NCBI RefSeq assembly: GCF_052324685.1
Contig: NC_135225.1
Location: 13,920,110-13,984,109 of the forward strand
DNA length: 64,000 nucleotides
Reading direction: 5' to 3'
Source of the DNA: Brachyhypopomus gauderio
Taxonomy: Eukaryota; Chordata; Actinopteri; Gymnotiformes; Hypopomidae
Part shown: one piece after another, positions 44,101-48,681 of the stretch
Position numbering within the stretch: position 1 is the stretch's first letter
How the letters are laid out: each line of letters starts with the position of its first letter
Position numbers and translations under genes: made by a program
The notes under the pieces: generated by a model
Databases searched by the model: none
Told to the model about the DNA's origin: nothing
What the model saw: the letters and a program-made list of their open reading frames with translations, nothing else

Positions 44101-47100
44101 ACTAGTTTCCCAGAGATGATTAATGATCAATGATTAATGATCACAGCTACAGATGGACAATTCCTGTGCAGTGGCACTCTCTGACCACTAACACCACCAC
44201 CACCATCTTGTTTGAAAGAGATCAAGAAGGCAAGTGATACGCCATTGGTCTCCACATTATCAGGCAGATAATTAAGCTGATTGAGCAGTTCCAAATTATC
44301 TTAATTCTTGACGTTTTTCCTGTGATCTTCCTTCAGAATTGCCTATCACAGACTACTCACCTTCTACTGATGGACTCATTAAAGTCAACAAGGACCACAT
44401 GGGCTTTTACCGCGTCAATCACCATGACAGCATGTGGAGAGCCATCATCCAGCAGCTGCAAACAGACCACCTGGTACTGTCTCATGCTTAACAGCGTGTT
44501 TACTTACTGGATATCATTATGGCAGAGTTCTTGGTCTCTTCATTCTGTTTTTTTTGTTTTTACTATGTTTTCTTTCCATTTATTAGGTGTTCAGTGCAGC
44601 AGACAGAAGCAGTTATATTGATGATGTATATGCTTTGGCAAGGTACACCCACCCTGAATGTTTTCATGTGATACAGACTAATGACCTGCTACTCATGTAC
44701 AAATGATTAAAGAAGGATAAAGACAGAATGTGCTGACTTTAACACACAAGAAGACCGGAACACAGTTAAGCTGCACAGACGATATTAGACTGAAGGTATA
44801 ATAAAAACGCATGGCCTACTGGGTTTTGATGAATGTTGTATGTCAACAGGGCGGATGTTGTAGACTATGGGATTGCCTTTGACTTAACCCAATACCTGGC
44901 CAATGAGACAGACTACATCGTGTGGCAGCGGGTCTCCTCTTCGATAGCCTACGTGAGGGACATGTTGGCATCTAACTCCACACTCTATCCCAAATTTCAG
45001 GTGAGAACCTTAGCATGAGGTCACCATTATCTTTTGTTTCAGAGAATTGAGAATTTTAGAGACTTTTCAATGCATACCCAAATACATGCTTATACAGATG
45101 GCAAGAATGTTAAAAAATGTAAACATATTTATCAGTAACGGTTTATTATGCATCTCTAGAAAGTTTTCCGTGACCATGTGTGGAAGCTCTCCAGGGAGCT
45201 GGGCTGGGATGATGTGGGCACCCATACACAACGGTGAGTGTGGGTGGGCGTGTGTTGCTGCTAGCCAAGGTCATGCTTCATACTGTGTGTGTTTGTGTGT
45301 GTGTGTGTGTGTGTGTGTGTGTGTGTGTGTGTGTGTGTGTGTGTGTGTGTGTGTGTGTGTGTGTGTGTGTGTGTGTGTTTGTGTGTGTGTTTGTGTGTGT
45401 GTGTGTGTGTGTGTGTGTGTGTGTGTGTGTGTGTGTGTGTGTGTGTGTGTGTAGTACCTGGAAAGTAAATATTCTGTTGTGTGTCTCCTAGGCTGCTGAG
45501 AGAGACAGTTCTGGGCATTGCCTGCCAGATGGATGACAAAGAGATTCTCGATCAGGCTTCTGTGATTTTTAAAGAGTGGATCAGTGGAGCAAAAAGGTGA
45601 AAATCTAAATTCAAACATGAAGGAACAACAAATACCTTCAAACAACTATTAGTCATCACAAATCAACACAACTGCTAACAAGGAAAGAGACATGGCAGTA
45701 ATATGTAGATTAGGTATATGAATGTGTGTTTATGTCTGTGAGTGAAATGAAGTGCAGGTTAGCATATGAATCTGTGTTTATACCTGTAAGTGTACTGAAA
45801 TGTAGGTTAATGTAAGAGTTTGCATTTATGTCTCTGTCAGGGAGGTAAAATATGGTATGGTATGGTATGGTATGGTATAGCTTTATTGTTTAAAGTGCCG
45901 GTAAGTGTAATACTGACTTTCTGTCTATTATGAGTGCAGCAGTATGTCAATGATCCTCTGTATTTTGAGTGTAGCAGTTTGACAGTGATCCTCTCTGTTT
46001 TGAATGCAGCAGTGTGTCAGTGATCCTTTGTGTTTTTGAGTGCAGCAATGTGTCAGTGATCCTTTGTGTTTTGAGTGCAGCAGTGTGTCAGTGATCCTCT
46101 GTGTTTTGAATGCAGCAATGTGTCAGTGATTCTCTGTGTTTTGAATGCAGCAGTGTGTCAGTGATCCTTTGTGTTTTTGAGTGCAGCAATGTGTCAGTGA
46201 TCCTTTGTGTTTTGAGTGCAGCAGTGTGTCAGTGATCCTCTGTGTTTTGAATGCAGCAATGTGTCAGTGATTCTCTGTGTTTTGAATACAGCAGTGTGTC
46301 AGTTATTCTCTGTGTTTTGAGTGCAGCAGTGTGTCAGTGATCCTGTTTTTTAGTGCAGCAGTGTGTCAGTGATCCTTTGTGTTTTTGAGTGCAGCAGTGT
46401 GTCAGTGATCCTTTGTGTTTTGAGTGCAGCAGTGTGTCAGTGATCCTCTGTGTTTTGAATGCAGCAGTGTGTCAGTGATCCTCTGTGTTTTGAATGCAGC
46501 AGTGTGTCAGTTATTCTCTGTGTTTTGAGTGCAGCAGTGTGTCAATGATCCTTTGTGTTTTGAGTGCAGCAGTGTGTCAGTGATCCTCTGTGTTATAAAT
46601 GCAGCAGTGTGTCAGTGATCCTCTGTGTATAAATGCAGCAGTGTGTCAGTGATCCTCTGTGTTTTGAATGCAGCAGTGTGTCAGTTATTCTCTGTGTTTT
46701 GAGTGCAGCAGTGTGTCAGTGATCCTCTGTGTTTTAAGTGCAGCAGTGTGTCAGTGATCCTCTGTGTTTTGAATGCAGCAGTGTGTCAGTGATCCTCTGT
46801 GTTATGAATGCAGCAGTGTGTCAGTGATCCTCTGTGTTATAAATGCAGCAGTATGTCAGTGATCCTCTGTGTTTTGAGTACAGCAGTTTGTCAGTGGTCA
46901 TCTGTGTTTTAAATGCAGCAGTGTGTCAGTGATCCTCTGTGTTTTGAATGCAGCAGTGTGTCAGTGATCCTCTGTGTTTTGAATGCAGCAGTGTGTCAGT
47001 GATCCTCTGTGTTTTGAATGCAGCAGTATGTCAGTGATCCTCTGTGTTTTGAGTACAGCAGTTTGTCAGTGGTCCTCTGTGTTTTAAATGCAGCAGTGTG

Positions 47101-48681
47101 TCAGTGATCCTCTGTGTTTTGAATGCAGCAGTGTGTCAGTGATCCTCTGTGTTTTGAATGCAGCAGTGTGTCAGTGATCCTCTGTGTTTTGAATGCAGCA
47201 GTGTGTCAGTGATCCTCTGTGTTTTGAATGCAGCAGTGTGTCAGTGATCCTCTGTGTTTTTAATGCAGCAGTGTGTCAGTGATCCTCTGTGTTTTGAATG
47301 CAGCAGTATGTCAGTGATCCTCTGTGTTTTGAGTACAGCAGTTTGTCAGTGGTCCTCTGTGTTTTAAATGCAGCAGTGTTTCAGTGATCCTCTGTGTTTT
47401 GAATGCAGCAGTGTGTCAGTGATCCTCTGTGTTTTGAATGCAGCAGTGTTTCAGTGATCCTCTGTGTTTTGAATGCAGCAGTGTGTCAGTGATCTTCTGT
47501 GTTTTGAATGCAGCAGTGTGTCAGTGATCCTCTGTGTTTTGAATGCAGCAGTGTGCCAGTGAACCTGAGGCTGCTGGTGTACCGCTATGGAATGAAGAAT
47601 GCAGGAACAGCGGAGGACTGGGAGGTCATGTTCCAGCGGTACCTCAGTGCCACGCTCGCTCAGGAGAAAGACAAGCTCCTGTATGGCCTAGCTTCCACAA
47701 AAGACATCTCCCTCCTCAGCAGGTCAGACCCCTCAGGGTATATGGTCCATGTTATTGGTAGACTTAATAACACGTTTTAAAAGGGCAGCAAACTAATCGA
47801 AGACAACGGGGAAGCAATCTGGAAGAAACCTTGAAAATTACCTTGAGAATGATCTTCAGATAAGATGTGTTTCCTGACAGGCTGCTGGAGGCGTCGAAGA
47901 GTGAGAACCTCGTGCGAAGCCAAGACGTATTCAGCTTGGTGCGATACGTGTCCCTAAGCAAGGATGGGGAGAGCATGGCTTGGGACTGGGTCACCCTCAA
48001 CTGGGACTATCTAGTGAACAGGTAAAGAGAACACTTTTGCAACAGATCATGAGAGTGAGAATGAGACCTTTTTTTATACAGTAGAAAACATTAACATTTA
48101 TTGCACATTGAATCAGATAAGAGATATTATCTCTATTTCAGGTGTGTCGGGTTTTCAGCTGGTGTTTGACGCGTGTTGTGTGTTTCAGGTACACTATTAA
48201 CGACAGGAACCTGGGTCGTCTGCTTACCAGAATAAGTACTTCATACAACACAGAGCTGCAGCTATGGAAGGTAGCACATAGACACGTGCACACCTGTGTA
48301 TACAGATATGAGAGCAGTAATATAAAACAACTACAGTCAGAGGCTTATGAAAAAACAGAAGTTTAATGAGCAACTCCAGCGAGGAATAGTCCACTCTGCT
48401 GAAAATGTGCAGCGCGTGGAAAAACGAGGGAGTCATCATTCCTGAAGCTATCTTTACTCAGACTCAGCCTTCGCATTGATGTGCCAGGTCTTTGGTGAAT
48501 TCCCTGATAAACACATCCATTTTCCTTTTCTCAGATGAAGAACTTCTTTGCTCTGCACCCAAACGCTGGAGCGGGAGAAATGCCCAGAAAGCAGGCCCTG
48601 GAGACCGCGAGGAACAACATGGAGTGGGTGAGGCGCAACAGAGAAGAGATCCAGCTCTGGCTAGACAGCAACGCGGCCTGA
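38143..48681 (+). CDS. enpep: Glutamyl aminopeptidase (aminopeptidase A)
   Basis: Type II membrane M1 zinc aminopeptidase that cleaves N-terminal Asp/Glu, as in angiotensin II to III. Twenty coding exons: 38143-38756, 40137-40278, 40559-40690, 40776-40896, 41159-41313, 42700-42813, 43107-43241, 43493-43558, 43638-43703, 43875-44035, 44147-44229, 44337-44473, 44587-44642, 44850-45000, 45160-45233, 45492-45596, 47549-47722, 47881-48021, 48189-48270, 48535-48681. Phases close to 951 aa (human 957). Membrane anchor about 22-42. The calcium-site Asp (human D221) is D211 in ATDHEP. GAMEN is 347-351. HELVH is 383-387, with the third zinc ligand E406 in [11 protein letters not shown]; the site is split by intron 5. 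C-terminal half has [40 protein letters not shown]. Intron 11 is GC-AG. Intron 16 ends in a 35-bp minisatellite. Fully coding-competent. Confidence 0.97.
40311..40422. repeat. (TG)n microsatellite, enpep intron 2
   Basis: Starts 33 bases after the exon 2 donor. Confidence 0.95.
40925..40991. repeat. (CA)n microsatellite, enpep intron 4
   Basis: Begins GCGCGCACAC, 30 bases after the exon 4 donor. Confidence 0.95.
42583..42635. repeat. (TG)n microsatellite, enpep intron 5
   Basis: TG run with ATG interruptions about 65 bases before the exon 6 acceptor. Confidence 0.9.
45284..45452. repeat. Long (TG)n microsatellite, enpep intron 15
   Basis: About 168 bases of TG with three TTTG interruptions. 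It lies 50 bases after the exon 15 donor and 39 bases before exon 16, so it fills most of the intron. Confidence 0.95.
45850..45880. repeat. (TATGG)n pentamer run
   Basis: About six tandem TATGG units in enpep intron 16, just before the 35-bp array. Confidence 0.9.
45932..47556 (+). repeat. 35-bp minisatellite derived from enpep exon 17 splice acceptor
   Basis: About 45 tandem units of 35 bp. Each has the order CCTCTGTGTTTTGAATGCAG, then CAGTGTGTCAGTGAT. The last unit runs into the true exon 17 boundary at 47548/47549, where exon bases CAGTGTGCCAGTGAACCTG nearly equal the unit. Most units keep an AG acceptor with a short pyrimidine/T-rich lead. Variants include AGTACAG, GTTTGTCAG and TTATTC. 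The array occupies most of intron 16 (45597-47548). Confidence 0.95.

Follow-up and report, generated by a model that had tools for sequence, protein, structure and literature searches.

A 35-bp minisatellite of splice-acceptor-like units abuts exon 17 of enpep in Brachyhypopomus gauderio

A minisatellite in the human gene 6-16, which we take to be IFI6, was reportedly described by Turri in 1995 as giving rise to multiple splice donors. In lancelets, minisatellites at intron/exon boundaries were named mirages in Adh3, and excerpts of the reports describe further cases in the globin genes BflGb6 and BflGb9, in the troponin C gene TnC, and in PGBD5, with regular splicing reported to be undisturbed (PMC3087553, PMC3902484). 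For human ABCA7, an excerpt of the report gives the retention of one repeat unit as 2 ± 1%, independent of repeat length, and exon 19 skipping as rising with length (PMC5954066). Here, we describe an array at the acceptor side of enpep exon 17 in a 64,000-nt stretch of Brachyhypopomus gauderio DNA (the window). Among the matches listed from the open-access literature, none was recognizable by its title or the start of its abstract as a vertebrate acceptor-side case or as any such case for enpep.

The assignment of the array-bearing gene to enpep follows from the translation of exons 15 to 20, which matches human glutamyl aminopeptidase (4kx7; E = 2e-85), and from the upstream region, which in three frames gives in-order matches to 4kx7 positions 3 to 700. 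Over positions 3 to 874, the gene is collinear with this human ENPEP chain, with weak matches for two short exons (3.6 and 3.9 bits). A stop codon at 48679-48681 in exon 20 (read by eye) closes the coding sequence, and the gene is apparently intact. The preliminary description numbered the exon behind the array 17, which is right if the exons are counted as 20 in all, a count that includes two small exons identified by eye and approximate boundaries for exons 11 to 13. Exon 16 (45492-45596, 105 nt; plus strand, as for all features below) is in frame, its open frame aligning to human ENPEP, and ends at a donor GT at 45597. It is followed by intron 16 (45597-47548, 1,952 nt), exon 17 (47549-47722), and exon 18 (47881-48021). 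The real acceptor of exon 17 is of the NAGNAG type (gcagcag, 47547-47551), with AGs at 47547-47548 and 47550-47551, 3 nt apart, and exon 17 measures 174 nt, or 171 nt if counted from the second AG, and either length is divisible by three. The human ENPEP alignment is one residue shorter, as would be expected if splicing were to the second AG. Since the gene aligns in order and its stop codon is reached, this last acceptor is presumably functional. On the other side of exon 16, a (TG)84 tract (45284-45452) makes up 169 of the 258 nt of intron 15 and ends approximately 40 nt before the exon 16 acceptor, so that exon 16 is flanked by repeats on both sides; TG tracts near acceptors affect exon skipping in CFTR.

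The minisatellite extends from 45931 to 47566 according to TRF (period 35, 46.8 copies, 92% matches), accounts for approximately 1.62 kb of intron 16, and abuts exon 17, its last partial copy lying inside the exon. Thus, the tandem repeat spans the intron/exon boundary, as it does in mirages. An earlier placement of the array start at 45597 had taken the intron donor for the array edge, and the true start lies 334 nt further on; the near-copies of the real acceptor reported before exon 17 are confirmed, with the approximate count of 45 decoys becoming 46. With units anchored on the acceptor, we count 47 acceptor-like units, 46 of them decoys and the last, at 47547-47548, the real site; they are spaced 35 nt apart with the exception of one spacing of 32 nt, one of 34 nt, and three of 36 nt. 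Each unit combines 19 nt of intron end, comprising the pyrimidine tract and CAG, with approximately 16 nt of exon start. A typical unit ends CCTCTGTGTTTTGAATGCAG, followed by CAGTGTGTCAGTGATC, while exon 17 itself starts CAGTGTGCCAGTGAACCTGAGG. Intron 16 also contains, to the left of the array, a 48-bp unit repeated 2.2 times (45703-45809); five segments tested from this region showed similarity to the 35-bp unit not above that of shuffled sequences (lowest, 73/400).

As in mirages, the splice signals are contained in the repeated units: of the two AGs in CAGCAG, all 46 decoys keep the first and 42 the second as well. Over 23 nt, in an ungapped comparison in which units with indels count high, 15 of the 46 decoys show no difference from the real site, 24 differ from it at one position at most, and 39 at two at most. 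When scored with approximate weights, as were the branch points below, 36 of the 46 decoys equal or exceed the real site (5.7), and the other enpep acceptors (15 scored of 18 possible) range from 2.1 to 12.5, five of them falling below it. Because the score of the real site lies within the range of the other enpep acceptors, the real acceptor and its decoys are of ordinary strength. No strong donor for new small exons was seen within the array; among the twelve best candidates, the best GT agrees with the donor consensus at 6 of 9 positions.

The claim in the preliminary description that every decoy would lead to a premature stop held for all 46 when the reading frame was computed from the exon 16 entry. 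After entry at the first AG, the stop is encountered within 25 to 82 nt: at 46 nt in 34 decoys, at 61 nt in six, at 82 nt in three, and at 25, 40, and 43 nt in one decoy each. Even the 15 decoys that lie a multiple of 3 nt from the real site are stopped, there by the repeats in between. The distance from each decoy stop to the exon 17 end is 160 nt or more, which places the stops far upstream of the last junction, and, under the usual 50-nt rule of nonsense-mediated decay (NMD), decoy transcripts would be NMD targets.

These properties raise the possibility, voiced in the preliminary description as a tuning of enpep output by array length, of a dosage device, in which the 46 decoys would divert a sizeable, copy-number-dependent share of enpep to stop-bearing, degraded forms. 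Such a role would draw on decoys that match the real site in strength (36 of 46 scoring at least as high with the approximate weights, 15 identical over 23 nt) and that all lead to stops. However, excerpts of the lancelet reports describe mirages without aberrant mRNA (PMC3087553, PMC3902484), and in the ABCA7 excerpt, unit retention is approximately 2% and unchanged with the length of the variable-number tandem repeat (VNTR) (PMC5954066). Furthermore, the unit has 14 invariant columns out of 35, both AG columns and 12 others, and the comparison of these columns gives no evidence of selection on the decoy AGs, which are no more conserved than the 12 other invariant columns. Judging from sequence, we regard such a device as quite improbable and any regulatory role of the array as speculative.

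The presumed displacement of the branch point is one of three features that the preliminary description had omitted, the others being the NAGNAG acceptor and in-frame exon skipping. At the left edge of the array, 1.6 kb from exon 17, lies a TACTGAC motif (45911-45917; A at 45916), 24 nt before the exon position of the first decoy, which has the top branch-point score of all 47 sites with the approximate weights. Of all window positions, 0.2% have a TACTRAC motif within a 29-nt stretch and 9% have CTRAY within a 27-nt stretch, frequencies to be read knowing that the motif was chosen after looking. We consider TACTGAC a candidate ancestral branch point and the adjoining segment (45918-45939), now the first decoy, a candidate for the ancestral polypyrimidine tract and acceptor. 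Duplication of 19 plus 16 nt would leave sequence from further upstream at the far left edge, so that the old branch point would have been displaced, and the 35-bp unit looks too short to have contained it. The left flank at 45893-45923 shows no similarity to a further decayed unit above that of shuffled sequences (762/1000 reach it); flank segments that reach further into the tract or the acceptor are marginally similar (18/400, 44/1000, and 69/2000 shuffles), and, given this marginal similarity, the left flank could be one more decayed unit.

A distant branch point for exon 17 was also considered and is countered by the spacing of AG dinucleotides. With 152 AGs in the array, no interval between neighbors exceeds 27 nt, and the AG nearest upstream of the real one (47523-47524) leaves an AG-free zone of 22 nt, rather than the long AG-free zone expected of a distant branch point. 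According to an excerpt on the first-AG scanning rule, AGs within 12 to 15 nt of the branch point can be bypassed (PMC1431707). In an array so dense in AGs, this rule leads us to expect the branch point of exon 17 in the last unit, where the best-scoring motif for the real site (approximate weights) is GTGAT at 47524-47528, in that portion of the last repeat that derives from the exon. Exon 17 thus probably uses a substitute branch point, most likely the A at 47527 within this GTGAT.

Skipping of exon 17 would offer another route. The array might chiefly drive such skipping, with the frame kept and 57 to 58 residues lost, and longer arrays would skip more. Exon 17, at 174 or 171 nt, can be left out with the frame kept, and an excerpt of the ABCA7 report describes exon 19 skipping that increases with VNTR length (PMC5954066). 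However, that precedent concerns a different gene, a different unit, and a different side of the exon, and we regard a predominant skipping effect as unlikely.

With respect to its origin, the proposal in the preliminary description that the array came from the intron/exon boundary is upheld by the agreement of the exon with the repeats and by its conservation. In register, the start of exon 17 matches the unit consensus at 16 of 18 nt, and the best matches elsewhere in the window, with the array region excluded, reach 14 of 18 on the plus strand and 13 on the minus strand. The exon start encodes SVPVNLR, compared to SLPVNLR in human ENPEP, and this conservation argues that the exon is the older partner. 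An origin of the array in tandem duplication of the exon 17 boundary is therefore well supported as a reading of the sequence. One point against our preferred explanation is that all the units differ from the exon at two positions: the exon C at +8 corresponds to T in 45 units and to A in one, and the exon A at +15 corresponds to T in all 46. Either the founder unit already carried such differences, or they arose in the exon at a later time. The converse scenario, in which an independent intronic minisatellite spread into the exon edge and overwrote its first 18 nt, could explain why the last partial array copy lies inside the exon. It would have to produce an exon start that encodes residues conserved in human ENPEP and carries bases at +8 and +15 that occur in no unit, and we regard it as very improbable.

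The array appears to be confined to this locus. Searching the 797-Mb genome at the DNA level with positions 47200-47700 gave nine matches, seven in the array, including the query itself, and two weak ones elsewhere; the latter were considered as further copies of the array and rejected as unrelated low-complexity arrays. Within the limits of that search, the array is found only at enpep. A protein search of the genome gave eleven matches, six in enpep and five distant ones at 34% to 41% identity, and in three of these five distant gene copies, the 150 nt that precede the equivalent acceptor are free of such an array.

Subsequent growth of the array seems to have been less simple than the leftward extension initially suggested. 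In favor of that suggestion, the mismatch to the consensus declines from left to right (Spearman, -0.49, a trend that indels inflate along with the ungapped counts of 6 to 9 mismatches in five other units), and the first two units, with 7 and 5 mismatches, would mark an old left edge. What does not fit a purely leftward course is the reshuffling of internal blocks: identical blocks, the longest 151 bp, are repeated at lags of 35, 70, 141, 175, 210, 245, and 280 bp. As in mirages, concerted internal turnover is thus combined with diverged edge units, a pattern consistent with repeated exchange of blocks in an array whose left edge is old. The same ordered private variants and block duplications among units, on a contig of 23.6 Mb, argue against an assembly artefact or a badly miscounted array. 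Tandem arrays are often misassembled, and we nonetheless consider an error of this kind extremely improbable here.

Two other minisatellites were noted in the window. The first (55398-55627; 30 bp, 7.7 copies) also lies at an exon edge, starting from intron position +3 of a donor, and the exon beside it reads like what we presume to be LAMTOR3; by eye, its later units start GAGAGTGTGTGG and are without the GTGAGT of the real donor. The second, downstream of enpep (52517-53128), has periods of 29, 59, and 147 bp in a nested higher-order arrangement, with 20.9 copies of the 29-mer.

Considering these data, we propose that the array is quite probably a mirage-type boundary minisatellite, with a displaced branch point, a substitute in the last unit, and occasional decoy use leading to decay. 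First, a 35-nt stretch comprising 19 nt of intron end and approximately 16 nt of exon start would have been duplicated in tandem, and later expansion and reshuffling would have proceeded through slippage or unequal exchange. As the duplication logic and the TACTGAC motif suggest, this expansion would have left the old branch point at a distance of 1.6 kb from the exon. That most units are still complete-looking acceptors would be due to the exon-derived sequence of the preceding unit, which supplies a branch-point-like GTGAT, and the real exon would most likely splice from this substitute in the last unit. The real site would win because it is joined to an exon of normal size with its own donor; it most likely dominates, with little leakage. 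Occasional use of a decoy would run into the computed stop and presumably end in decay of the message, and the array itself is probably near-neutral. A more far-reaching chain, in which growth cut the exon off from its ancestral branch point, the duplicated exon rebuilt the acceptor, the last of 47 sites is chosen, and repeat number sets the productive fraction, appears doubtful when taken as a whole.

The locus may serve as a natural experiment on acceptor choice, with 47 acceptors in one intron and stops that report each wrong choice. It could tell whether donor distance, first-AG scanning, or exon definition decides which acceptor is used, and it could show how a gene survives the growth of a minisatellite across one of its splice sites.

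Boundary minisatellites are already known from lancelets and, on the donor side, from human ABCA7, and the enpep array is an acceptor-side vertebrate member of this group. As excerpts of the lancelet reports describe them, mirages are likewise minisatellite-like tandem duplications across an intron/exon boundary, with splice signals in many, though not all, units and variable copy number (PMC3087553, PMC3902484). The BflGb6 mirage, so far as its excerpt goes, resembles the enpep array in joining the 3' end of an intron to the 5' part of an exon, and it differs in having six and three units of 150 to 160 bp in two haplotypes, compared to 46 decoys of 35 bp. Adh3 mirage units are given as 10 to 72 bp. 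Unlike the lancelet mirages, in the excerpted descriptions, the enpep unit seems to have left the old branch point outside. According to the ABCA7 excerpt, the 25-bp unit of the intron 18 VNTR also carries a splice signal beside an exon, and its length is linked to splicing; however, it lies on the donor side, and the effect measured for its length is that the next exon is skipped (PMC5954066). Set against each other, the lancelet and ABCA7 precedents thus cut both ways on whether array length matters. The real enpep site also fits the NAGNAG tandem acceptors, with the difference that its AG pair recurs in 42 of the 46 decoys. The human 6-16 minisatellite, as far as the partial account of it goes, reportedly provides splice sites just as the enpep array does, albeit on the donor side rather than at the acceptor.
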